From positions 1 to 45,974 of the forward strand of contig PWHW01000007.1 in the NCBI GenBank assembly GCA_003555075.1: DNA of 45,974 nt, read 5' to 3'. The first letter of the stretch is position 1. Each line of letters begins with the position of its first letter. This document shows positions 2,577 to 39,140 of this stretch, piece after piece. The notes under the pieces were generated by a model, which worked only from the letters and a program-made list of their open reading frames with translations, searched no databases and was not told where the DNA came from. The DNA is from Candidatus Nealsoniibacteriota bacterium. GTDB taxonomy: Bacteria; Patescibacteriota; Minisyncoccia; Minisyncoccales; PWPS01. Position numbers and translations under genes: made by a program.

Positions 2577-3599
2577 TTACATTCTTTCACCTCTTTGCAT
2601 ATGAGAAAAAGGGTTGGATCCGTTTCTTGTTTCAAAATGCAAGTGGCATCCCGTAGCTCCTATGGTGTAACCGGTATTTCCCATAGTACCCATTCTTTGT
2701 CCAGAGCTTACCCTTTGTCCTGAAGAGACGCTGACTCCCTGCATATGTGCATACAAAGCCTCAAAGTTTCCATGATCCACAAGAACATACCTTCCCGCTC
2801 TACCATCATATCCGGTTCTTACCACTATTCCGGAGGACGCGGAATATATTGGAGTTCCACAGGAATTTGCCACATCAATTGCATTTCTATGCCCGGGATG
2901 ATCACCTTGTGTTACCGTTCCCCGCGTAGGAACGGCAAATCCCACAGAAGAAAAACCTGAAGGAGCACTCGGTTCTGTTGAAGGGGCAGGTTCGGGAGGT
3001 TTCTCTCCTTCCGGTATAATAAGCATCTCCCCGGGTCTTATATCAGAAGCCTCAATGTCATTAAAGCTCATTATTCTATCAAGTTCCGCCTTGTGTTTTT
3101 CCGCGATCTCGCTTGGAGAATCGTTTTTCTCAACATAATACAATACTCCTGTAGTGGGAAGTATCAATAGTTCATCTCCTTCCTTTATTCCATTCTCCAC
3201 ATTGTTTGCCCACTCTATGGTTTCTTTGCTAATACCAAATTCTTCTGCAACACTATCCACTGTATCTCCTTTTTGTACTTTGTAGGACATTATGCTACTC
3301 CTTTCCCCTTCAAGTCCCTTTGCTCCCATAACGCTTGTTTCGGTAAAATAAGGGGTGGACCCGGCAAGCAAGGAATTGCTTCCGAAAAAAGTTATCTTTT
3401 CAAACCCCGGCCCTCCATTCTTATTATAAGAAATAAAAAGATCGTTGCTGCTGTGCTCAGGCGCTGTCTTCTCTTTTAAATCAGGGGTCCCCTGTGATGC
3501 AAAACAAGAAAATAGCAGCAATCCAAAAAAAACAAAAACAAGGAGAAAGTCGCTTCTCCTTATTTTTCTTCCTTTTTCTTTACCTTTGCTCCAAAGCAC
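2577..3599 (-). CDS. Secreted/membrane-anchored M23 peptidase with two LysM domains
   Basis: 340 aa; N-terminal hydrophobic segment; LysM (YKVQKGDTVDSVAEEFGIS; YYVEKNDSPSEIAEKH); M23 motifs HRNAIDVA and HLHFE. Confidence 0.88.
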   Translation of the reverse strand: MLWSKGKEKGRKIRRSDFLLVFVFFGLLLFSCFASQGTPDLKEKTAPEHSSNDLFISYNKNGGPGFEKITFFGSNSLLAGSTPYFTETSVMGAKGLEGERSSIMSYKVQKGDTVDSVAEEFGISKETIEWANNVENGIKEGDELLILPTTGVLYYVEKNDSPSEIAEKHKAELDRIMSFNDIEASDIRPGEMLIIPEGEKPPEPAPSTEPSAPSGFSSVGFAVPTRGTVTQGDHPGHRNAIDVANSCGTPIYSASSGIVVRTGYDGRAGRYVLVDHGNFEALYAHMQGVSVSSGQRVSSGQRMGTMGNTGYTIGATGCHLHFETRNGSNPFSHMQRGERM

Positions 3600-4635: not shown

Positions 4636-5415
4636 ATGAAAAGAGAAGACAAAAGAACTCTCATCATTAGCGTGATCATGATATTTTTCCTGATCTTTGC
4701 TTCTTACTGGAGACTGGTGAATATAGGAACCTCCAAGCCTTCTTCCGACCCTCCATTGGGAGAAGGAATGGAAGCTTCCGACAGAGAAAGCTTGCTTCCC
4801 GACGACGAGGAGATCATGAAGATGATACCCGAAGAACGCCTTCAGGAAATAATGCCCAAAGAATACAGAGAAGGGTTGCCACCCGAATATCAAGAAATGT
4901 TTCCGGACTCAATCTACTCAAACGATACAAGTACAAAAGAAGAAAGTACGATTGATATAGACAATATTGAATTCGCCACCTTTTCCAAGGAAGGAGAGGT
5001 GGCTTTCAAATACCCTTCCGAATGGACAACTGTAAAAGAATTCGAAGAAGAAAAGGTTGAAACAGAAAAAGCAGAGTTCCTTTTTATCGCCCAATCGGAA
5101 GACCCGTACAACCCGCCTTCTCTGGCTGTTTTAAAAATGGAAGCCTCCGATATAGAAGAAGTGTTGGAGATAATAAAAAAGGAAATAGAAATAGATGGAG
5201 CTAATATGAAAATTACAGAAAAAGAAAAGAAGGAAAGCGGATATATTCTTGAAACAAAAAATGATCTCGGAGGAGTTATATCAGTATCAAGAAAGAAGAT
5301 AGTGTCCACAAAAGAAGGATATTATTATCTGGTTTCCGTTAGCGGATTTAGCAGGAATTGGGAAGAAGTATCACCAATAGCGGATCATATTATAGATTCC
5401 ATAAAGCTTAAATAA
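4636..5415 (+). CDS. Hypothetical membrane-anchored protein with PsbP-like C-terminal domain
   Basis: 259 aa; one N-terminal TM; C-terminal 'VAFKYPSEWTTV...YYYLVSVSGFSRNWEEVSPIADHIIDSIK' resembles PsbP/DUF1795-like folds. Confidence 0.6.
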   Translation: MKREDKRTLIISVIMIFFLIFASYWRLVNIGTSKPSSDPPLGEGMEASDRESLLPDDEEIMKMIPEERLQEIMPKEYREGLPPEYQEMFPDSIYSNDTSTKEESTIDIDNIEFATFSKEGEVAFKYPSEWTTVKEFEEEKVETEKAEFLFIAQSEDPYNPPSLAVLKMEASDIEEVLEIIKKEIEIDGANMKITEKEKKESGYILETKNDLGGVISVSRKKIVSTKEGYYYLVSVSGFSRNWEEVSPIADHIIDSIKLK

Positions 5416-5422
5416 AAAACCA

Positions 5423-7306
5423 ATGAATTCCAAAAAAGTAGTTTTTTTTCTTGCATTACTCATTCTCTTCTTTCCTCTTTTTTCTTTGGGGGAAAATAAC
5501 GAAGAAGATTTTCAAACGGCAATAGGAGATGTGGAAACTCAGCTTAATTGGCCAACTTCACCTCTAACGGGGGTCAATTTTCAGCAAATGGAAGAAGAAG
5601 GGAGAGCTCCGCAACTCCATCACTTTATTGAGTACCTTTATGGATGGGGCATAGGAATAGGAGGGTTTTTTGTTTTCGCAATGCTTGTTTACGGGGGAAT
5701 AGAATACATGACCGCCGCCGGAAACCCGGGAAAAACAAAAGAGGCAATGAAAAGAATAACCTCTGCGGCAACAGGTCTTGTATTGCTTTTGGCTTCTTTT
5801 TTGATCCTAAACACTATAAACCCTCAACTCACACAGCTCACTGATGTCACTGAAGAAGTTCAAGAGATGAAGATGAGACTACAAGGGCTTGACCCTAAAG
5901 ATCTGGGTGAACCTCCTTGTGCCTTCGTTGCTTTCTTTCCCGAAGAGAATTATGGTGGTGAGCCCGACATAGTAGAAATTGGAGAAAGAAATGTAAGTGA
6001 TATTCGCAGTAGTCTCGGAGGCGAAAACATACAATCCGTAAAAGGTTTTCGCTATATGAATCTTGACGAAGCAAGAGAATACAAGAGAAATAGAAATGAA
6101 TACGAAAAAGTCGGAGAAAGAGAAATTTATATAAGAGGAGAAGACAGAACTCTTAATTTTGAAATAAAAGAATTTGAAGGAGATAGAATTATCTATACAA
6201 ACACCACTGATGGAGATGCTCTGGGGGACTGGGATCTTCTTATAGAAACCGATTCCTCTTGTAGGGTAACTCTATACAGGGATGGAGATGGGATATTCGG
6301 AGGTGATCCCGCCACTTTGTGTGAAAGGCAGATCGGTGTAGTAACAAGCAATGTTCCCAGTCGTTCTTACTTGGAAGATGCTGTTTTTGGAGGGCAGGCT
6401 TTCACTCTGGATTGCTTAATAGTAGAAAACGTAGGGGAGGGAGCGCCATATTATGAAGAGATCTACTTTTGGAGCGAATGCGTACATGTTCCCGAATTCG
6501 CCGTGTACGATCCGGATGAAATAGATCGATGCCCCCCGGGTTCCGAACACGTCTCCAGCCATCAAAGATGCGAAGATTATTTGGGAGAGAAAAGAAGGGA
6601 TGTAATGGAGAAGTGCGGGCCCTACGAATATATTTTTTGCTGTAAAGGAAAACCCGACGAGGTTACACTCCCCGTAGAACACGATGCAGAAATAAATGTT
6701 TATAGCGATCAAAACAAAATTTCCCCTGGTGAAACAGTAGAAATAAAGTGGGAATTGACCGACAAAGACCCATCCATAGCTCCTGACTGTGTTGCATTCT
6801 CCAGTCCCACAATAAATGAATGGGACGGAGATCAAGGATCAAATCAAACAGAAGGGAGTAAAGAAATAACGCTTCAAGACGAGGGTACTTATTCTTTTGG
6901 CGTACGCTGCTGGAAAGACTCGATAGCAGAAAGAAGGGATACTACCTCTGTGACAGTCACGGAAGAAGAGGAAGCTCCCGATATAGATATAAATGTAAGA
7001 ATAGGCTGGTGGGACGATATGATCAATGAATGGGTTTATGGTCCCGTAGAAGATGAAATAAGTCATACCGATGTCCATGACGATACAGCGGGATGGGAAT
7101 ATTTTGTAAAAATAGAATGGGAATCGGACGGAGCAGAAGACTGTTATGGAGCCGCAATAATATCAGGACAAGAAATAGAAGGCACCTCGGGCACACAGAC
7201 TTGGTCGCCACTTTTCTTTAATGAGGAAGTAAACGACATTTCGATAACTTGCGAAAAGAACGGCTTTACAGAGACAAGCGGTGTAAAATATTACAGATGG
7301 GAATAA
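5423..7306 (+). CDS. VirB2/TrbC-like pilin module fused to putative beta/gamma-crystallin-like, Cys-rich and Ig-like extracellular domains
   Basis: 627 aa; signal peptide; two-TM module (GWGIGIGGFFVFAMLVYGGIEYMTAAGNPGKTKEAMKRITSAATGLVLLLASFLIL); FVAFFPEENYGGEPDIVEIGERNVSDI...NIQSVKGF Greek-key-like motif; Ig-like tail. Confidence 0.7.
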   Translation: MNSKKVVFFLALLILFFPLFSLGENNEEDFQTAIGDVETQLNWPTSPLTGVNFQQMEEEGRAPQLHHFIEYLYGWGIGIGGFFVFAMLVYGGIEYMTAAGNPGKTKEAMKRITSAATGLVLLLASFLILNTINPQLTQLTDVTEEVQEMKMRLQGLDPKDLGEPPCAFVAFFPEENYGGEPDIVEIGERNVSDIRSSLGGENIQSVKGFRYMNLDEAREYKRNRNEYEKVGEREIYIRGEDRTLNFEIKEFEGDRIIYTNTTDGDALGDWDLLIETDSSCRVTLYRDGDGIFGGDPATLCERQIGVVTSNVPSRSYLEDAVFGGQAFTLDCLIVENVGEGAPYYEEIYFWSECVHVPEFAVYDPDEIDRCPPGSEHVSSHQRCEDYLGEKRRDVMEKCGPYEYIFCCKGKPDEVTLPVEHDAEINVYSDQNKISPGETVEIKWELTDKDPSIAPDCVAFSSPTINEWDGDQGSNQTEGSKEITLQDEGTYSFGVRCWKDSIAERRDTTSVTVTEEEEAPDIDINVRIGWWDDMINEWVYGPVEDEISHTDVHDDTAGWEYFVKIEWESDGAEDCYGAAIISGQEIEGTSGTQTWSPLFFNEEVNDISITCEKNGFTETSGVKYYRWE

Positions 7307-7315
7307 AAAACATAA

Positions 7316-9010
7316 ATGACTGCCAAAAAAATCACGGTAATTGTCACTTTTCTTTTGATAGCACTCTTTCCTTCTCTTGGTTTAACAGAAAATGAAATTG
7401 ACTCATCACTCCAAAGAACTGCTAGCCTGGATTGGCCCACCTCCCCTCTCACGGGAATAAATTTTCAAGAAATAGAAAGAGCGGGAGAAGTGCCCCAAAT
7501 CCATCATCTTATTGAATACCTTTACGGGTGGGGTGTGGGAATAGGAGGATTCCTTGTTTTTGTCGTTCTGGTGTTTGCCGGTGTGCAATATATGACTGCC
7601 GCCGGAAATCCGGAGAAGACCAAGGAAGCAATGGAGCGAATTTCCTCGGCCATCATGGGGTTAATCCTTCTTCTTTCTTCCTTTTTGATACTGGAAGCGA
7701 TCAATCCCGGCATGACACAAATAAGGGATGTGAGAGAGGAGGTAGAACAGATGGAAATGCGAATGGAAGGATATGATCCAAGAGATCTGGAAGAGCCTGC
7801 TTGTGAATTCATTAAAATCTATGAAGAGGGAAATTTTGAAGGAGAAAGTGTAAGACTGGAAAGGGGAACTCATACAATAAGTGACATTGAGAGAGGGGCC
7901 GGTCTTTCTTCTTTTCATTCCTTGAAAATGTTCCGAAAACTTGATGAAGAAGAAGCCGACAGATACCTTGAGAACGGAGAAATAAAAGAAGATGTTTCAC
8001 ACGATGAGAGAGATATAATTATAGAAGACGACATACCTTACATAGAAACCCATAGCTCATGTCGCGCAACAGTTTATCGTGAAACCCGATCCACTCTGTT
8101 TGGCATAACAATAAGATCCACTCCTTGCGGAAGGCAAGTGGGAATAATAAACAATAGAATAAAAAGCTACTCTGAGCTGAACGATGTTCTTTTTCCCGAA
8201 AAAGGGACTGTTCCATCCATTGATTGTATGGTAATAGAAACCGTGGGAGAGGGAGAGCCGGCAGATTTTTATGCGGACTTAATGCCGGATGTTGAGATCC
8301 CTCCGGGGAAATGGAAGTGCGCCAAGGAAGACCCGTGTGAAACGGATGGAATACTATTCTCACAAAACCCCTCAAAAGCAAAAGATGTATGCGACCCGGA
8401 AGAATTAAAGGATCCTGATAATCCGGAAGATCACTGTAAAGAGGAAGAAGAATTATGGTGCTGTCCTCCCGTAATGCCCGACGTGCCTCACTATGCCCAA
8501 GGAGACCCGCGGTGGGGATATAAGATATATGGAAGAGATTGTGATCCACAAAGAAATATGAGTTATGCTGGATGCGGACCCACTTCCGCCGCCATGATGC
8601 TTTCCTATTACGGAATTCCTATAGACCCCTGGGATGCCGCTCAATTCGCACTACAAAGGGGTCATCGCGTGTGCGGAAGTGGAACTTATCAATCACTTTT
8701 TTCAGATATTGCAGATCATTATGGGCTAAAGTATATTTACTTGGGCCAAAACACCAGCGAGGTGAGAAAATATCTCGAAAACGGTTATCCGGTGGGAGCG
8801 AGAGTTTATGCTCCCCCTCTTCGTGCAGATGGAAGAACAGGTGGTCACTATATCGTCTTTACGGGAATAGACGAAAAATATCTCTACATAAACGATTCTG
8901 TTTTTAACCACCCGGTAAGAGTTCCCCAAGAGTCGCTGGAAACCTTACCTTACCAACATCCTGATGATAGAGGATCTAATCGTGCTTTCGTTATTCTTCC
9001 GGGAGAGTAA
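7316..9010 (+). CDS. VirB2/TrbC-like pilin module fused to putative beta/gamma-crystallin-like domain and C39-like cysteine peptidase domain
   Basis: 564 aa; paralog of the preceding gene over the N-terminal ~300 aa; C-terminal DVPHYAQGDPRW...AGCGPTSAAMMLSYYG...GGHYIVFTGID...YINDS papain-like C39_2 motifs. Confidence 0.75.
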   Translation: MTAKKITVIVTFLLIALFPSLGLTENEIDSSLQRTASLDWPTSPLTGINFQEIERAGEVPQIHHLIEYLYGWGVGIGGFLVFVVLVFAGVQYMTAAGNPEKTKEAMERISSAIMGLILLLSSFLILEAINPGMTQIRDVREEVEQMEMRMEGYDPRDLEEPACEFIKIYEEGNFEGESVRLERGTHTISDIERGAGLSSFHSLKMFRKLDEEEADRYLENGEIKEDVSHDERDIIIEDDIPYIETHSSCRATVYRETRSTLFGITIRSTPCGRQVGIINNRIKSYSELNDVLFPEKGTVPSIDCMVIETVGEGEPADFYADLMPDVEIPPGKWKCAKEDPCETDGILFSQNPSKAKDVCDPEELKDPDNPEDHCKEEEELWCCPPVMPDVPHYAQGDPRWGYKIYGRDCDPQRNMSYAGCGPTSAAMMLSYYGIPIDPWDAAQFALQRGHRVCGSGTYQSLFSDIADHYGLKYIYLGQNTSEVRKYLENGYPVGARVYAPPLRADGRTGGHYIVFTGIDEKYLYINDSVFNHPVRVPQESLETLPYQHPDDRGSNRAFVILPGE

Positions 9011-9019
9011 TAGATCGCT

Positions 9020-9472
9020 TTACATTTGCGGTTCAATCTCCGGAACATCTTCAGGAGTCTTTTCCAGTTCTAAAAGAAGCTCCTTTTCTCCTTCCAAAAA
9101 TATATTCTTTTCCGCCGGTAAATATCCTTCCTTGTAACCCCAGATCCAATACTCCCCTACGGGAAGCTCCACCACACTGGGAGTATCAAAAGAGTTTTTG
9201 CCGTCAATATAAAAGCTCGCTCCTTTCGGATCGGAGTCAATGTAAAGCTTGAACATTTCTCCAAAACGCTCTTCTTCTTCTATATACTGGGGAACTCCCA
9301 CTTCTTCAAACATCTCTCTGTCGGGAAAAAGATATTCTTCCGGCTCTCGCGGTTCTTCTTGATCATCCCTTGAAGCATAGGGGCTTACAAAAAAGATGAC
9401 AACAAGCAGTGCGATCACTATTGCCGCACCAATGAATATAAATGTTTTTTCGCTATCAATGTTTTTGAACAT
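9020..9472 (-). CDS. PEGA-domain membrane protein
   Basis: 150 aa; N-terminal TM; SDPKGASFYIDGKNSFDTPSVVELPVGEYWIWGYKEGYLP PEGA-like repeat. Confidence 0.8.
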   Translation of the reverse strand: MFKNIDSEKTFIFIGAAIVIALLVVIFFVSPYASRDDQEEPREPEEYLFPDREMFEEVGVPQYIEEEERFGEMFKLYIDSDPKGASFYIDGKNSFDTPSVVELPVGEYWIWGYKEGYLPAEKNIFLEGEKELLLELEKTPEDVPEIEPQM

Positions 9473-9578: not shown

Positions 9579-11615
9579 ATGATAAACAACAAAAGGATAA
9601 AAACAGGTTCTCTTTTTACGTTTTTTCTTATAGCCTTCTTGGTCTTTCCTCAAATAGCCGATGCTTGGGCATTTGATGCGGCAAAAGCGGCTCTTGCAGG
9701 TCTATCCGAGATGTCTGGTCCTTTTGCGGGCATAGTGATGTTTTCCATCATATTCGCTCTCATAGGAGTGGTATTCATTTTTCTTTCCTCCGTTCTTCTT
9801 CAAGGCATGATGGAGATATCTCCTCAGCTTTTGACAGTTTCCGGCACCGGAGACATGGTGGTAGGAATAGGAGATAATGTGCAAATCGCATGGGAATTTC
9901 TCTCGGGTATAACCAATATGTTCCTTCTTATAGCATTCATCGCCATTGCTCTTTCCATTATATTGGGAGTGGAAAGTTTCGGCTTGAAGAAGTCCTTGCC
10001 AAGATTTGTTGTAGTAGCACTACTCATCAATTTTTCCCTTCTGTTTGTGGAAATAGGGATAGATATCTCCAACTTTCTCTGGAATTCCGTGGCAGACTTG
10101 TACACGACCCTTGACCCCCAAGAAGGAGGAATGCTGGAAGGAGTAGGAGATGAGAATATCTTTCTTCGCTCCATATACCCCTTAATAGATCTTGGGATGG
10201 AAATATACATTAGCAGCGCCGCTTTCATGGCAACCATGGCCGCAAGACTGGCTGTTCCTTATCTTAATGTGGCAACTCAAGTAATGTGGCTCGTAGCATT
10301 TCCTTCTCTCCTTGCAATGGTAGTGGAGAATCTGGTGTACGGAGGAATACTTTTTATGTTATCGGGAGTGTTCTTTCTTTTTTACTTTGTACTCCTTGCT
10401 CGTATATTCATAATACAAATACTGGCGGTAATTTCTCCCCTTGCATTCTTTTGCCTCATCTTTGATCAAACAAAAAAGTGGTTCGATCAATGGGTAAGTT
10501 ATTTGATACAATGGCTCCTTGTAGGAGTGGCAATGCTCTTCTTTATGTATATAGGACTTCTTTTTGCTCCCATTATTCAAAACCATGTTCGAAATATTGG
10601 AGAGATACTGTTCGCCTTTAACCTGCCGTGGTACATAGACTGGATCGTCCCGGATTTCCCCGCCATATTCGCTTACATCTCCTTATTCGTCTACTTTTTG
10701 GTAATTTTGGGAGTTATATATAAGCTCATTCCCGCAGGAGTACAAGCCGGAATGACACAAGTAAAAACAATGGCAAGCCAGTATGCTCTCCCCATGGCTC
10801 AAGCAGCCGGAAAAGGAGGAAGAAAGCATTATCAAAAAGTGGCAACCACATATGCTGAAAAAGGAAAAGAGTGGGCGACGGATGTCGCCGAGCCGGGAAG
10901 CGGAATGCAGAAAAAAGCTGCTGCTTTTGCAAAAAGAGGTCTCGGAAAAAGAATTACCGGCGCTCTAGAGGAAGAGCAAAAGGAGATCGACGAGAGAGCT
11001 AAAGAAATACAAGGAAAAAGCAAAGAAACACAAATAGCTACTCTCCATAATGCCCGCAAGGACAAAGAAAAGCTTGCAGCAGTGAAGGCCATGTACAAGG
11101 ATGATAGGCGCAACGAGGTCGAAGAAGCATTTCTGAACAATGAAGAGTCCTTTAATGAAACCTTTAAATATGCTCAAAAGATAGGTGAGGAAAAAGATCT
11201 TAAGAAATCCGCTCCTATTTCTTACGCCAAACATACGAACGCCGACCAAGGCGAAGTTGAGAAGATCGTCACTGAAACCCTTAAGCCTGAAGATATAGAA
11301 AAGGCTACCAAGAAGATCACTGAAGCATTCAAATCACAAGACAGTAAAGAAAGAAAGATAGGAGAGCAAATGATTGATGCAATATTAAAGTCAAGAGATG
11401 CTAATCGCCAAAAGAGTTTCTCAAAGGATGTCAAAGGAATAGAGTCCATTGAAGAACGCATTGATCAGCTGGCCCTTTCCCAAAATTATGTAAGCGACGC
11501 TTCCCAGATCAACCCTTCTATTCGCGGACAGGTCGTACAATCAAATTATCAATCCTTTGGCAAGCATCTTAGAAGAAAACCCGGTGAAAATCTTTACGAT
11601 ATAGAGATGTCCTAA
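9579..11615 (+). CDS. TrbL/VirB6-like polytopic membrane protein of type IV secretion-like system
   Basis: 678 aa; signal-like N-terminus, multiple TM helices over the first ~380 aa, long charged cytoplasmic C-terminal tail; neighbours PrgI and VirB4. Confidence 0.75.
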   Translation: MINNKRIKTGSLFTFFLIAFLVFPQIADAWAFDAAKAALAGLSEMSGPFAGIVMFSIIFALIGVVFIFLSSVLLQGMMEISPQLLTVSGTGDMVVGIGDNVQIAWEFLSGITNMFLLIAFIAIALSIILGVESFGLKKSLPRFVVVALLINFSLLFVEIGIDISNFLWNSVADLYTTLDPQEGGMLEGVGDENIFLRSIYPLIDLGMEIYISSAAFMATMAARLAVPYLNVATQVMWLVAFPSLLAMVVENLVYGGILFMLSGVFFLFYFVLLARIFIIQILAVISPLAFFCLIFDQTKKWFDQWVSYLIQWLLVGVAMLFFMYIGLLFAPIIQNHVRNIGEILFAFNLPWYIDWIVPDFPAIFAYISLFVYFLVILGVIYKLIPAGVQAGMTQVKTMASQYALPMAQAAGKGGRKHYQKVATTYAEKGKEWATDVAEPGSGMQKKAAAFAKRGLGKRITGALEEEQKEIDERAKEIQGKSKETQIATLHNARKDKEKLAAVKAMYKDDRRNEVEEAFLNNEESFNETFKYAQKIGEEKDLKKSAPISYAKHTNADQGEVEKIVTETLKPEDIEKATKKITEAFKSQDSKERKIGEQMIDAILKSRDANRQKSFSKDVKGIESIEERIDQLALSQNYVSDASQINPSIRGQVVQSNYQSFGKHLRRKPGENLYDIEMS

Positions 11616-11635
11616 TAAGATTGAAAAAAGGAAAA

Positions 11636-12094
11636 ATGCCCAAAAAATATACAAAAAAAGAGTGCAGAGAAATATACGAAAAGCTTCCCCCAAAGATCAA
11701 GGAGCTCTTTTGGGATGAAGATGTCTCCGATAGAATCGAAAAAGTGATAAAAAGATTCAATTTGGGCAAGATAAAGGGTGACAGATTGAACAAGATAATA
11801 TTCTATGTTTTTCTGGGGTTACTTCCACCCTCGTTAATAAAAAGAATGCTAAAGGAGAAGCTGGCCCTGAGCGAAAAAGAAAGTGAAGAGCTGGGAGACG
11901 AAGTTATTCGCTATATAATAGCTCCCATGAAGCATCTTTTGAAAATGCTTTATAAAAAGGAAGAGTTCGAAAAAGTGGGAATAAAAAGTGATTTCTACGA
12001 AAAGGATACGGAAACCGAAAGAAAGAAGTCTCCGCAGAAAAAAGAAGAAACAAGCAAGGATTCATCCGATCCTTACAGAGAACCTGTTGAGTAA
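11636..12094 (+). CDS. Hypothetical protein within the T4SS-like operon
   Basis: ORF track starts at TTG 11621; ATG at 11636 (MPKKYTKKECREIYEKLPPKIKEL...) is a likelier start. No family recognised. Confidence 0.7.
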   Translation: MPKKYTKKECREIYEKLPPKIKELFWDEDVSDRIEKVIKRFNLGKIKGDRLNKIIFYVFLGLLPPSLIKRMLKEKLALSEKESEELGDEVIRYIIAPMKHLLKMLYKKEEFEKVGIKSDFYEKDTETERKKSPQKKEETSKDSSDPYREPVE

Positions 12095-12102
12095 GTTGAA
12101 AT

Positions 12103-12513
12103 ATGCGTTTCAAGGTTCCCAGACATATAGAATACAAAGCGAAAATAGTTGGTCCAGCCACCTTCCCTCAGCTTGTCTATCTTGGGACTACCGCCCTCAT
12201 TGTTTTTTCCCTTTATCTTTTTTTGGGATCTTCAGTAGCATTCTATCTTTTCTCGATCCTTATTCTGTCAGGAGGCGTGGCACTTGCTTTTTTGGAAGTT
12301 TCCGGAGAACCTCTTCCTGACTATATCAGAAAAATGCTAACCTTTACCGTATCATCAAAAAAATATATCTGGAAAAAGGAATCCCTTTCTCCAAAGGTAA
12401 AAGTTCCGGAAAGAAGAAGTGTTCACTCAAAAGAGAAAGGAGAGAAAGAAGAAAAAATGAAGAAAAAGAAGGAAGGTAAAATAAGTAAAATAACCGATCG
12501 TTTAGCATCATAA
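12103..12513 (+). CDS. PrgI/VirB3-like protein
   Basis: 136 aa; MRFKVPRHIEYKAKIVGPATFPQLVYLGTTALIVFSLYLF, two TM near the N-terminus, immediately upstream of the VirB4-like genes. Confidence 0.8.
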   Translation: MRFKVPRHIEYKAKIVGPATFPQLVYLGTTALIVFSLYLFLGSSVAFYLFSILILSGGVALAFLEVSGEPLPDYIRKMLTFTVSSKKYIWKKESLSPKVKVPERRSVHSKEKGEKEEKMKKKKEGKISKITDRLAS

Positions 12514-12516
12514 GAT

Positions 12517-13137
12517 ATGCCCTACGAAAAAAGCACACAAGATTTCGTTCCTATAAGGCAAATAAGAGAGGGTGTTCTGATTTTGGATAACAGGGAATTA
12601 AGAGGAGTATTGATGGTATCATCAATTAATATCGGCTTGAAATCCAGTGATGAGCAAAAAGCGATAATAAATCGTTTTCAAAGCTTTTTGAATTCCCTTG
12701 ATTTTTCTTGTCAAATAGTGGTTCAATCAAGAAAGACCAATATTACCGGCTATATTGATAAAATAAGAAGATTGGAAAAGAAACAGACCAATGAGTTGTT
12801 AAAAAAACAAACCTCCGGTTATCGAAAATTCTTAGAGGAATTCGTGGAAAAAGAATCAATATACAGTAAAAGCTTTTTCGTTGTTGTGCCCTATTCTCCC
12901 GGTTTCAGCATTTCTTCCGGATCAGGAAAAAAAGAAATGAGTGAAGAGGATTTTCAAAGAGGAAAGGAACAACTCTATCAAAGAATGGAGTTCGTAGCTT
13001 TGGGTCTTAGAAGGTGCGGTCTTAATTGTGCACCTTTGACCACTCTAGAGATAATTGAACTCTTTTGGTCAATATTCCACCCCAAAAATGCTGAACATGG
13101 GTATTACCCGGAATTTCCGAAAGAACTAACCGGATAA
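12517..13137 (+). CDS. TraC/VirB4 N-terminal-domain-like protein without ATPase domain
   Basis: 206 aa; STQDFVPIRQIREGVLILDNRELRGVLMVSSINIGLKSSDEQ resembles TraC-family N-termini; no Walker motifs. Confidence 0.7.
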   Translation: MPYEKSTQDFVPIRQIREGVLILDNRELRGVLMVSSINIGLKSSDEQKAIINRFQSFLNSLDFSCQIVVQSRKTNITGYIDKIRRLEKKQTNELLKKQTSGYRKFLEEFVEKESIYSKSFFVVVPYSPGFSISSGSGKKEMSEEDFQRGKEQLYQRMEFVALGLRRCGLNCAPLTTLEIIELFWSIFHPKNAEHGYYPEFPKELTG

Positions 13138-13158
13138 AAAGATTATACTTCCCAAATT

Positions 13159-14967
13159 ATGAATTTTCTGGAAAACATTAAAAAATTTCTTCCCGGAAAG
13201 AATGGAAAAGATTTACCACAAAAGAAATCCGAAGAAGGGTCCAGCGTCGTAAGAATAGTGGATGTGGTAGCACCCTCTTCCATTGAAGAGACTCAGGGTC
13301 ACTTGAAAGTGGAAGAAAGATTTACTCGCTCCTTTTTTGTTTTTTCCTATTCCCAATACATTACAGCTGGTTGGATATCTCCAGTGATCAACATGAATAC
13401 TCAGCTTGATATTTCCTTTTTTATTCACCCCGCAAAAACAGCCGATGTACTTAAAAAACTCAGAAAACGTATAACTCAAGTACAAGCGGAAATGATGGAT
13501 AAAGAAGAAAAGGGAATAGTAAGGGATCCCGCACTGGAGAGCGCCTACAAGGACATGGAAGAGTTAAGGGATAGACTTCAATCAGCAGAAGAAAGAATGT
13601 TCCATTTTGGACTTTATATTACAGCATATGGTGATTCCAAAAAAGAAATAGAAGAAACCGAGACTAGATTGAGATCCATTTTTGAATCAAAGGCTATTTA
13701 TATAAGACCGTCTCTTTTTCAGCAATCCTCCGCTTTTATAAGTACTTCTCCTTACGGAATGGATCTTTTGCAGACCCATAACCCCATGAACACAGAACCA
13801 CTTTCAAGCATATTTCCTTTTATTTCTTTTGATCTTACTTCTTCGGATGGAATACTTTACGGAATAAATAAACATAATAATTCCCTCGTTCTTTTTGATA
13901 GATTTTCTCTCGAGAACGCCAACGCCATTATATTCGGAACCTCTGGGTCCGGAAAATCATATCTTGTTAAACTGGATGTTCTTAGATCTCTTATGTATGG
14001 AGTTGATGTGATTATTGTAGACCCGGAGAATGAATATAAGACCTTGGCAGAATCAGCGGGAGGATCTTTCTTCAATATTTCCCTGGGATCCGACAATCAC
14101 ATAAATCCTTTTGATATTCCTGTTCCCACGGAAGAAGAAACCAAAGAAGAGGTCATAAGAAGAAATGTTATCAGCTTGGTAGGTCTTTTTAGAATAATGC
14201 TTGGAGGTCTTACTCCGGAAGAGGACGCTATCATGGATCAAGCAATAACGGAAACTTATGCCGCAAAAGATATCACTCCGGAAAGTGATCCAAGCACCTG
14301 GGAAGAAAAGGTTCCTCTCTTTTCTGATCTGGAGCAGGTTCTGGAATCAATGGAAGGAACAAGAAATCTTATACTCCGCCTCAGAAAATTCACAAAAGGA
14401 ACATATTCAAAGTTCTTCAATCAAAAGACCAATGTTTCCATGGAAAACAATTTGACTGTCTTCGGGATCAGAGATCTGGAAGATGAGATGAGGCCGATCG
14501 CAATGTTCATCATTACTCGTTTCATATGGAAAGCAATAACCTCATCCATGAAGAAAAGGATGTTCGTTATTGACGAAGCGTGGCTTATGATGCAAAACGA
14601 GGATGGAGCATCATTCTTGTTCGGATTAGTGAAAAGAGCCAGAAAATACTGGCTCGGTGTTACAACCATCACGCAAGATGTTTCCGATTTTATGCATTCC
14701 AATTATGGAAAACCGATTGTAACCAACTCTGCTCTTAAGATTCTTTTAAAACAATCTCCCGCAGTGATTGACATGATCCAGAATATCTTCAATCTTACCG
14801 ACGAAGAAAAGTTCATTCTTCTTGAAGGAGAAGTTGGAGAAGGTATCTTTTTTGCCGGTCAAAAGCATGTGGCAATACAAGTAATGGCCTCTTACGAGGA
14901 AGACCAAATAATAACATCTTCTCCCGAGGAAATAGAAAAAATAAAAAAGGCTAAAGGAGGTCTATGA
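13159..14967 (+). CDS. VirB4/TraC-family conjugative transfer ATPase
   Basis: 602 aa; Walker A GTSGSGKSY, VDPENEYKTLAE, Walker B RMFVIDEAW, TTITQDVSDF. Confidence 0.92.
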   Translation: MNFLENIKKFLPGKNGKDLPQKKSEEGSSVVRIVDVVAPSSIEETQGHLKVEERFTRSFFVFSYSQYITAGWISPVINMNTQLDISFFIHPAKTADVLKKLRKRITQVQAEMMDKEEKGIVRDPALESAYKDMEELRDRLQSAEERMFHFGLYITAYGDSKKEIEETETRLRSIFESKAIYIRPSLFQQSSAFISTSPYGMDLLQTHNPMNTEPLSSIFPFISFDLTSSDGILYGINKHNNSLVLFDRFSLENANAIIFGTSGSGKSYLVKLDVLRSLMYGVDVIIVDPENEYKTLAESAGGSFFNISLGSDNHINPFDIPVPTEEETKEEVIRRNVISLVGLFRIMLGGLTPEEDAIMDQAITETYAAKDITPESDPSTWEEKVPLFSDLEQVLESMEGTRNLILRLRKFTKGTYSKFFNQKTNVSMENNLTVFGIRDLEDEMRPIAMFIITRFIWKAITSSMKKRMFVIDEAWLMMQNEDGASFLFGLVKRARKYWLGVTTITQDVSDFMHSNYGKPIVTNSALKILLKQSPAVIDMIQNIFNLTDEEKFILLEGEVGEGIFFAGQKHVAIQVMASYEEDQIITSSPEEIEKIKKAKGGL

Positions 14968-16897: not shown

Positions 16898-18268
16898 ATG
16901 CAAAAAGAAAACCTCTGGCAATCGGTTTTAGCTCAAATACAATTGGAGATCTCGGATGCCAGTTTTAATACTTGGTTCAAGAATACCAAAATATCGGAAA
17001 TTGAAAGAGGAAGGGTTACGATCTCCGTGCCAAATACTTTTGTAAGAGATTGGCTAAGTAATAAATATCATAAAAAAATACTAAAAGGCTTAAGAAATAT
17101 AGATCCCGGTATAAAAGAAGTTGGGTATACCATAAACTCCTCTTCAAACTCTTCTTCCGTAAAAACAAGAAATAGTGAGAGTAAGAAAGAAAACGAAAAG
17201 GCGGTTGATAATCAGATGGAATTTCAAGAACTTTCTATAGACCATAATACCGGTCTAAATCCCAAATACACTTTTGATAATTTCGTTGTAGGGCCTTTTA
17301 ATGAACTTGCCCATGCTGCCGGGTTTGCAGTAGGAAAAAATCCGGGGTCTTTATATAATCCCCTTTTTATATACAGTAAGACCGGTCTTGGAAAGACCCA
17401 TTTACTGCAAGCAGTGGGAAATAAGGTTAAAAAAGAAATAAAAGGAAAAAGAGTTTTTTATATTCAAGCACAGAAATTTATTTCCGAAATAATATCCTCT
17501 ATTCGAAATAATAAAATGGAGGAATTCAAATACAGATATAAAGATGTGGATATACTGATCATTGATGATATTCAATTCTTGTCGGGAAAAGAGAAAACTC
17601 AAGAAGAGTTCTTTCATACCTTTAACGAGTTATATGAAAAGAATAAACAAATAATATTATCCTCTGATAGACCGCCAAAATCAATCAGCTCTCTTACCGA
17701 TAGGCTAAGATCTCGCTTTGAAGGGGGTATGATCGCCGATATAGACTATCCTGATACAGAGACAAGAGCTGCTATTTTAAAGACAAAAGCACAAGAAAAA
17801 GATCTAACCCTTTCAGATGATGTTTGTTATTATATCGCGGAAAATATACAAAGAAGCATTAGGGAATTGGAAGGAGTGCTTAATAAATTGATTATCCAAC
17901 AACAAACCAAAGATACGGTCATTAATCTCAACGAAGCAAAGAAAGTACTGAAAAACATAAATCAAACATCTTCTACCTCTTTTTCATTCAATAAGATATT
18001 AAAAACAGTCGCAAATTTTTATGAGATAAATGAAAAGGATATAATGAGTTCCTCAAGAAAAAAAGAGGTGGTCAAATCAAGACAAATATTGATATATCTT
18101 TTAAGAGAGGAATTAAACTATTCTTATCCTTATATAGGTAAAAAAGTGGGAGGAAAGGACCACACCACAATCATCCACTCTTTTTCAAAAATAAAAAAAG
18201 AAATTCAAAAAAATGAAGAAATAAAAGAAGAACTTTCTTATATAAAGGAGAGTTTAATGTCTGTTTAA
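16898..18268 (+). CDS. dnaA: Chromosomal replication initiator DnaA
   Basis: 456 aa; GLGKTHLLQAVGN Walker A, DILIIDDIQFLSGKEKTQEEFFHTFN, C-terminal GGKDHTTIIHSF. Confidence 0.97.
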   Translation: MQKENLWQSVLAQIQLEISDASFNTWFKNTKISEIERGRVTISVPNTFVRDWLSNKYHKKILKGLRNIDPGIKEVGYTINSSSNSSSVKTRNSESKKENEKAVDNQMEFQELSIDHNTGLNPKYTFDNFVVGPFNELAHAAGFAVGKNPGSLYNPLFIYSKTGLGKTHLLQAVGNKVKKEIKGKRVFYIQAQKFISEIISSIRNNKMEEFKYRYKDVDILIIDDIQFLSGKEKTQEEFFHTFNELYEKNKQIILSSDRPPKSISSLTDRLRSRFEGGMIADIDYPDTETRAAILKTKAQEKDLTLSDDVCYYIAENIQRSIRELEGVLNKLIIQQQTKDTVINLNEAKKVLKNINQTSSTSFSFNKILKTVANFYEINEKDIMSSSRKKEVVKSRQILIYLLREELNYSYPYIGKKVGGKDHTTIIHSFSKIKKEIQKNEEIKEELSYIKESLMSV

Positions 18269-37463: not shown

Positions 37464-37961
37464 ATGGATGATTTTCTGGCTCCCGAAAAGATTATAAGGG
37501 AGATTCCTTCAAAGGAGGAAATGAGTGTTGCCGATTTCGGGTGTGGAGCAGGAGGGATCACCATTCCTCTTGCAAAAAAGTGCAAAGATGCCAAAATATA
37601 CGCAATAGATATTTTGAGCGAAGCACTTTCCGCACTAAGAAGCAGGGCGGAACTTGAAAAGGTTTACAACATTCGCACCCTGAGGGCCGATCTTGAAAAG
37701 GGGACGGAGCTTCAAGAAAACTTCTTTGACCTTGTAATAGTGTCCAATATACTTTTTCAAGCCGATGACAAAGAAGCTGTATTAAAAGAAGCTTATAGGG
37801 TGCTAAGGGACGGAGGACAATTGTTCGTGGTTGATTGGAAAATGGAGAATGATAAGGCCGAGGAAAAGATAAAAGAGGGAGCGGAAAACGAGGGCTTTAA
37901 ACTTTTAAGAGAAGTTGATGCCGGAAAGGATCACTTCGGAAGGATTTATGAAAAAAAATAA
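37464..37961 (+). CDS. Class I SAM-dependent methyltransferase
   Basis: 165 aa; MSVADFGCGAGGITIPLA, IYAIDILSEAL, LVIVSNILFQADDKEAVLKEAYRVLRDGGQLFVVDW. Confidence 0.88.
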   Translation: MDDFLAPEKIIREIPSKEEMSVADFGCGAGGITIPLAKKCKDAKIYAIDILSEALSALRSRAELEKVYNIRTLRADLEKGTELQENFFDLVIVSNILFQADDKEAVLKEAYRVLRDGGQLFVVDWKMENDKAEEKIKEGAENEGFKLLREVDAGKDHFGRIYEKK

Positions 37962-38286
37962 GAAAAAAGTCATATTTTCCACTCTTTTCTTTTTGCTTTT
38001 CGCAATTCCCTTTTTTGCCCTTGGTTCGCCTCTTGACCCCTTGGGAGGGCAATACAGCACCTTGCCCGAGCTTGTTACTGCTATCGTGAATTTCATTGGT
38101 CGGGTGGCCATTGTTCTTACTCCGCTGGTGTTTATTTATGCCGGTCTTCAGTATTATTTTTCCACTGGAGACCCGGATAAGGCGAAAAAGGCTGCGGACG
38201 CTGTAAAATGGGGAATTGTCGGACTGGGGATCATAATTGTCGCCGAGGGAATTATTTATGTTATTGAAGATGTTCTTCTAAATTAA
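37948..38286 (+). CDS. VirB2/TrbC-like two-TM pilin-like protein
   Basis: MKKNKKK start inside the 3' end of the methyltransferase gene; VFIYAGLQYYFSTGDPDKAKKAADAVKWGIVGLGIIIVAEGIIYVI. Confidence 0.78.
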   Translation: MKKNKKKVIFSTLFFLLFAIPFFALGSPLDPLGGQYSTLPELVTAIVNFIGRVAIVLTPLVFIYAGLQYYFSTGDPDKAKKAADAVKWGIVGLGIIIVAEGIIYVIEDVLLN

Positions 38287-38682
38287 ATGAAAATACTCAA
38301 GGAGGACTACAAGAGAAAAAAAACTTTAAGAAGAGGAATTTGGGGATTAGCAACCCTTTTCATTCTTGGAATTCCCTTTTTTGCGATCGCAAATAACGGA
38401 GTTCTGATAGGGGAAGGGCAAGATGTTATTGATGTTATCATTAATTTAACGGAATTCGTTTGGAGGATATTTCTGCTTATAACGGTACTTGTCTTTATTT
38501 ATGCAGGTTTTACTTATTATACGGCCGCCGGAAACCCCGACAAATTCACTACTGCCAATAAGATGGTGATGTATGGGCTTATCGGTCTTGCTGTTGCGCT
38601 TCTCGGTTGGGGAGTCAGTTCTCTTATGAAGGATTTCCTCGATCCGGATTATTATAATTATTTGTTCAATTTTTTTTCGTAA
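38287..38682 (+). CDS. VirB2/TrbC-like two-TM pilin-like protein
   Basis: 131 aa; VFIYAGFTYYTAAGNPDKFTTANKMVMYGLIGLAVALLGWGVSSLM. Confidence 0.78.
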   Translation: MKILKEDYKRKKTLRRGIWGLATLFILGIPFFAIANNGVLIGEGQDVIDVIINLTEFVWRIFLLITVLVFIYAGFTYYTAAGNPDKFTTANKMVMYGLIGLAVALLGWGVSSLMKDFLDPDYYNYLFNFFS

Positions 38683-38786
38683 TACTTCAGTGATCTATCA
38701 TTGACCCCTGCGGAAAAATTGTTTATCATTCCATTAATAGAAATTTTTGCCGAAAAAGGTCGCAAGGAACAAAATAAAAACGAAAG

Positions 38787-39140
38787 ATGAAAAAAATAGC
38801 TATAATTTTATTGTTGGTCGGGGTGCTTGTTGCTCCCATGGTTGCCGTGGGCCAACCGGATGTTACCACTCCCGAGGGGTGGAGAGGACATATAGAGAGC
38901 CCGGAGGACATAGAGAATCTTTTAGAGAGCCTTATTGAATGGATATGGGGAATCATGATAATAGTAGTGGTTGGTTTCTTGCTCTATGCCGGATTCTTGT
39001 TTGTTACTGCAGGAGGAAGCGAGGAGCAGGTCGGAAAAGCGAAGGATTTTGTGAAGTATGCGTTGATAGGTATTGTTGTGATGTTACTTGCCTGGGGAGC
39101 GGTGTCTTTGGTAGAAGCGTTCCTTCAGTTAGGGCAGTAA
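38787..39140 (+). CDS. VirB2/TrbC-like two-TM pilin-like protein
   Basis: 117 aa; signal-like N-terminus; FLLYAGFLFVTAGGSEEQVGKAKDFVKYALIGIVVMLLAWGAVSLVEAFL. Confidence 0.78.
   Translation: MKKIAIILLLVGVLVAPMVAVGQPDVTTPEGWRGHIESPEDIENLLESLIEWIWGIMIIVVVGFLLYAGFLFVTAGGSEEQVGKAKDFVKYALIGIVVMLLAWGAVSLVEAFLQLGQ

Follow-up and report, generated by a model that had tools for sequence, protein, structure and literature searches.

A VirB2-like T4SS pilin with a predicted C39_2 cysteine hydrolase tail in Patescibacteria

The window, a contig of 45,974 bp, encodes a VirB2-like T4SS pilin that is joined to a predicted C39_2 cysteine hydrolase (gene at 7316..9010, +). We consider it probable, with appreciable room for doubt, that this tail cuts peptide cross-links of the cell wall. 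The protein would in effect join VirB2 with a VirB1-like hydrolase, in a T4SS from which the customary SLT and CHAP enzymes are missing. T4SSs and pilin arrays of Patescibacteria are already known; the pilin-hydrolase fusion and the domain swap reported here were not found described in the literature examined, and neither C39 (0 occurrences) nor pilin-enzyme fusions are mentioned in PMC12102498. Most VirB2-bearing Patescibacteria genomes have no recognised VirB1 (PMC12102498), leaving the route through the wall unclear. If pilins bring exchangeable wall hydrolases with them, this gap would be closed and two T4SS parts would be fused.

Results

The fusion gene is a single ORF with an ATG start, lying inside the contig and encoding 564 aa. 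Pfam analysis identified a T4SS_pilin domain at residues 62-126 (PF18895; E 1.3e-10, 41.6 bits vs a cut-off of 26.6), which a whole-genome search with PF18895 also matched (7499..7696, +). Hydropathy placed two TM helices at approximately 68-98 and 107-134, separated by a short K/R-containing loop, and predicted a signal peptide at about residues 1-24 (7316..7387, +; cleavage site approximate). With PF18895 over its cut-off, two TM helices and a T4SS gene cluster around it, the protein is T4SS_pilin/VirB2-like; with a tail of ~430 aa, it is not a small, essentially pilin-only protein. All 13 Cys fall in the tail after the second TM helix. Taken with the signal peptide and the pair of TM helices, this makes a location of the tail outside the cytoplasm very probable. 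An earlier, sequence-only reading of this DNA had likewise placed the domain outside the cell, tethered to a pilin-like T4SS subunit, and the PF18895 match and the PrgI and VirB4 genes downstream agree with that tether.

Within the tail, a middle region (~160-345; 7793..8350, +) is common to the fusion and its paralog. It has no direct match in Pfam and is possibly beta/gamma-crystallin-like, as suggested by Crystall/Inhibitor_I36 Pfam matches in homologous tails. A Cys-rich knuckle (residues 335-383; 8318..8464, +) stands directly before the Peptidase_C39_2 domain, which by Pfam boundaries covers residues 389-528 (PF13529; 8480..8899, +; E 1.5e-21, 77.9 bits vs a cut-off of 24). This match is far beyond chance and is the sole C39_2 match in the 610-kb genome. 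The ORF runs on past the domain to 9007 and then stops.

To examine the catalytic domain, we aligned the six pilin-C39 fusions with a stand-alone C39 protein (L052). The window domain was only 27-37% identical to the others in this seven-sequence alignment, and the invariant columns included Gln395 (8498..8500, +), Cys420 (8573..8575, +), His511 (8846..8848, +) and Asp527 (8894..8896, +). A profile of the alignment matched the solved structures 3erv (8.8e-9), the PCAT protease 6mpz (4.1e-6) and ComA (6.9e-4), with Cys, His and Asp in register. These residues are the predicted nucleophile, base and third catalytic residue, respectively. Gln395 is the predicted oxyanion-hole residue, as in papain folds generally. 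The sequence-only reading had noted the order Cys, His, Asp/Asn, and the alignment decides for Asp, the one in IND(S).

Structure prediction, which that reading had proposed as a check, gave a confident C39/papain-like fold (AF2 model built with 36 sequences; pLDDT 90.7, pTM 0.88). Foldseek searches of the PDB with the model ranked 3erv highest (2.4e-8), followed by the pseudomurein endoisopeptidase PeiR (9.3e-7) and then PCAT1; other matches included ComA C39 domains, staphopains and the papain-like toxin/immunity pair 9l5u. The C39-like papain-fold domain originally assigned to 8480-9007 was thus recovered by profile, model and structure search, and its catalytic residues align with those of solved C39 peptidases. 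Pfam score, predicted catalytic residues and predicted fold together identify it as a predicted member of Peptidase_C39_2. Assignment as a C39 leader peptidase (PF03412) was rejected, with a score of 17.2 bits vs a cut-off of 22 and no ABC-transporter domain. An inactive relic was rejected as well, the active-site residues being kept in every fusion.

The fusion gene stands at the head of a T4SS operon, after its paralog and before the genes for a VirB6-like protein, PrgI and a split VirB4. The first gene of the apparent operon encodes a membrane-anchored PsbP-like protein (4636..5415, +; PF01789 E 7.5e-4, below cut-off). A membrane-anchored PEGA-domain protein (9020..9472, -; PF08308 E 6.3e-10) is encoded between the fusion and VirB6-like genes. 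The polytopic VirB6-like protein (9579..11615, +) has no Pfam match; its homologues adjoin pilins across the order, and we apply the VirB6 label provisionally. It is followed by a conserved small gene (11621..12094, +), whose homologues occupy the same place, and by a PrgI/VirB3-like gene (12103..12513, +; PF12666 E 6.8e-10). The N-terminal part of VirB4/TrsD is a separate gene (12517..13137, +; NCBIfam VirB4_plasma, TrsD), next to the VirB4 ATPase of the CD1110 family (13159..14967, +; NF045971, 368.7 bits vs a cut-off of 325), the only VirB4 in the genome. The same division of VirB4 into two genes (12517-14967 in the window) was seen in the relatives fetched. dnaA, recognised from its sequence, lies at 16898-18268.

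The VirB4 is of the monoderm conjugation type and by sequence marks the system as MPF-FATA-related. Patescibacteria T4SSs are related to monoderm MPF-FATA systems, often lie near dnaA and are usually without a relaxase (PMC12102498). The window cluster is such a known Patescibacteria T4SS. It resembles the VirB2-like pilin arrays described for this phylum (PMC12102498; PMC10633639) in its T4SS_pilin domains, tandem copies and proximity to VirB4, PrgI, VirB6-like and dnaA genes. VirB2 is a small pilin in those papers, whereas the window fusion has a long enzyme tail. In S. epibionticum, the only species examined by genetics, neither the T4SS nor its pilin array is dispensable (PMC10633639; PMC12857230), and the array is needed for epibiotic growth (PMC12102498; PMC10633639). 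Elsewhere in the window, at 37915-39140, three short T4SS_pilin genes that lack tails form an array of their own.

The genome holds a single C39_2 and a single M23, the latter in a LysM-M23 peptidase encoded near the cluster (2577..3599, -; PF01551 E 5.5e-25). CHAP, SLT and SLT_3 were absent from the genome at E <= 0.1. The LysM-M23 protein could provide wall opening instead of the fusion.

The tandem paralog (5423..7306, +; 627 aa) has the same pilin and middle region and shows 52% identity to the fusion within the latter's first 236 aa. The two proteins align across pilin, middle region and Cys motif, with the last four Cys spaced identically (359/374/382/383 in the fusion, 383/398/406/407 in the paralog), and beyond this motif they part, the fusion continuing with C39 and the paralog with a beta-rich tail (6650-7303, +). 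The earlier claim of a different domain at the same position in the paralog therefore holds. That reading had called the paralog tail Ig-like. With its two all-beta units, an Ig-like fold is plausible; the tail had no Pfam match, a PDB sequence search gave only E 0.69, and a single-sequence model was weak (pLDDT 56.9). A fused adhesin is conceivable for the paralog only.

This pilin was present in 244 of the 246 genomes of the order, and long tails were the rule (median length 444 aa in a sample of 130 fetched pilin frames). We identified six pilin-C39_2 fusions (the window protein, L038, L046, L087, L213 and L216) and eight pilin-M23 fusions (L039, L040, L043, L044, L047, L049, L206 and L194). 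L040 and L043 begin at a contig end and are possibly incomplete; L206 additionally showed a weak match to lysozyme-like SLT_3. The M23 metal motifs were intact in all eight M23 fusions, as were the catalytic residues in all six C39 fusions. Protein-by-protein Pfam scans of ~90 long pilins, selected by pilin match and length, revealed C39_2 and M23 as the only enzymes in the tails, plus the weak SLT_3. Non-enzyme tail domains were LTD, dockerin and crystallin-like. Lamin Tail Domain tails recurred as a cargo type (L177:4425-7004(-), L195:4811-7318(-) and L199:5735-7999(-); E 2e-12 to 8e-10). Because the majority of the order's pilins carry no recognisable enzyme, a pilin-borne hydrolase is not a universal part of the system.

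Homologous pilins of ~1000 aa from the same genus had conserved modules on both sides of an enzyme that was C39_2 in some and M23 in others. When L038/L046 (C39) were compared with L039/L047 (M23), identity was 48-55% in the pilin, 41-46% in the middle module and 54-59% in the C-terminal Cys-rich module; the enzyme domain was not shared. By sequence comparison, the exchange of C39 and M23 in these homologous pilins is a true domain swap. The swappable C-terminal slot that had been suggested from the window's two paralogs is thus found in related pilins too.

The pilin tree grouped the window protein with its enzyme-less paralog and enzyme-less sister pilins (100/90) and nested L038/L046 among six M23 proteins in a clade supported at 100/100. 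The C39 tree likewise failed to unite the fusions. Both trees contradict a single origin of the C39 fusion. The pilin tree, in which the window protein and L038/L046 sit apart, shows a separate arrival of C39 on the window's pilin: the domain came to pilins more than once, or underwent repeated swap and loss. Sister genomes have a hydrolase-bearing pilin just downstream of VirB4 (L040, L043, L047). The window genome has no long pilin downstream of VirB4, and its hydrolase is instead on the upstream tandem pilin. It looks as if the wall-hydrolase function was kept while the carrier pilin changed.

A pattern derived from these same C39 domains served to search viral contigs for relatives of the C39_2 domain. 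The relatives were lysins with PG_binding_1, GH25, or phage lysozyme plus NlpC/P60, and one overlapped an r1t holin gene. The viral closeness seen in the C39 tree (95/78) partly reflects selection because of the origin of the search pattern. PHROG 10051, annotated 'endolysin', matched the C39 domain with E 9e-4. Peptidase_C39_2 is among the listed lysin catalytic domains (PMC8223927) and also has links with transporters (PMC10318531). C39_2 was found in 197 of 384 genomes of the class, many times in unrelated secreted Patescibacteria proteins, and the fold alone therefore cannot fix the substrate. The notion that all C39_2 domains of the class are pilin fusions was rejected: L087 was the single such fusion among ~40 long C39 frames retrieved.

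Discussion

Cell-wall hydrolysis is favoured because C39 keeps company with M23, a weak SLT_3, phage lysins and a holin, and we infer from these sequence associations that the wall is the substrate of the fusion's C39. The second-ranked fold match, PeiR, is a wall isopeptidase too. The functions first suggested for the domain, which were substrate processing, remodelling of surface proteins or a role as effector, are not supported as the leading one; a VirB1-like role was not among them. Sequence evidence indicates that the tail would be displayed outside the cell by a pilin encoded at the head of the T4SS operon, and sequence and structure evidence indicate that it would hold a complete, conserved C39-type active site. 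By analogy with its relatives, it may cut peptidoglycan at the site of a pilin that sits in the translocon or is exposed on a pilus, producing a path through the wall. Mainly the cell's own wall, at the base of the T4SS, might be cut, with the host wall as another possible target; this last step is the least sure.

In Gram-positive bacteria, VirB1 proteins are anchored in the membrane and expose hydrolase domains, LytM and CHAP among them, outside the cell (PMC12857230). The fusion resembles the VirB1-like hydrolases PrgK, TraG and Orf14 (PMC12857230) in being encoded in a T4SS cluster and in combining, by its sequence, a membrane anchor with a lysin-type domain predicted to be extracellular, and the LytM (M23 type) domain of this group is shared with the pilin-M23 relatives. 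It differs from them in that its anchor is a VirB2-like pilin, not a VirB1 anchor, and its enzyme C39_2, not SLT or CHAP. Since the fusion has C39_2 and no SLT, CHAP or LytM domain, LytM/M23 occurring in its relatives only, we do not file it as a VirB1 member. Phage lysins with Peptidase_C39_2 (PMC8223927), such as the C39-like peptidase of bajarodcaudo virus 5, share family, catalytic residues and ~30% identity; they are soluble or tail lysins with wall-binding domains, unlike the membrane pilin of the window. The C39 domains of PCAT/ComA ABC transporters (PF03412) are alike in fold and catalytic residues. Those domains are transporter-fused and cut leader peptides, whereas the window C39 is predicted to lie outside, with no transporter.

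A related possibility is that pilus or tip subunits with exchangeable C39 or M23 heads open the host wall, acting as a drilling device matched to host wall type; we regard this as unlikely. Another proposal is that the pilin carries C39 onto or into a host cell, to damage or digest it, as a contact-delivered effector or toxin, the slot being a toxin cargo slot. The variation of cargo among paralogs and sister species, the toxin/immunity pair 9l5u among the fold matches and the presumed epibiotic lifestyle of the phylum (PMC10633639) are consistent with toxin delivery. Yet the enzymes found are of wall-hydrolase types only and do not form a diverse toxin set, the tail is covalently joined to a two-TM membrane protein, and no adjacent immunity gene was recognised, so we rate delivery as quite improbable; cutting of the host wall would in any case overlap with the reading that we prefer. 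We give only marginally more credence to a protease role, either in pilin maturation, by cutting the tails of this pilin or of its paralogs, or on further surface proteins, in the manner of C39 leader peptidases and staphopain-like enzymes. Long pilin tails would place substrate close by, and true proteases share this fold, with PCAT1, ComA C39 domains and staphopains among the Foldseek matches. In homologues, however, the place of C39 is taken by M23, typically a peptidoglycan endopeptidase, and the window domain has neither a double-glycine leader peptidase context nor an ABC transporter fusion, with PF03412 below its cut-off.

The domain might instead mainly bind wall peptides, as an adhesin like inactive Gram-positive VirB1 homologues. 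An adhesin role of VirB1 has been proposed for some Gram-positive systems (PMC12857230), and neighbouring tails carry the non-enzymatic LTD, dockerin and crystallin-like domains; but the retention of Gln, Cys, His and Asp in six of six C39 fusions, and of the M23 motifs in eight of eight, makes a binding module very improbable. Least credible is a chance or recent meaningless fusion, or an assembly error that attached a secreted housekeeping C39_2 protein. C39_2 is frequent in the class and the nearest sister pilins lack an enzyme, but the gene is a clean single ORF inside its contig, and independent genomes hold six fusions of a pilin with C39 and eight with M23, their active sites conserved, which largely refutes this explanation.

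A pilin-borne wall hydrolase, the reading that we prefer, suggests how a reduced T4SS machine gets past cell walls, its own or the host's. The fusions offer single-residue and domain tests of such penetration for either wall.

Additional observations

Other pilin and hydrolase arrangements were seen in the same survey. Four frames carry 150-360 aa ahead of the pilin domain, which is there internal or C-terminal (L176:4341-6056, L186:4405-5919(-), L205:3177-4355 and L209:3083-4549(-)). A well supported clade (100/99) of C39_2 proteins of ~410-520 aa (L089-L125; 17 loci) contains no pilin fusions and occurs class-wide. Two M23 proteins of 1032-1046 aa adjoin a T4SS pilin (L053:8878-11973(-) and L054:4073-7210(+)); their signal peptide and C-terminal hydrophobic segments possibly mark another design of membrane-tethered hydrolase.
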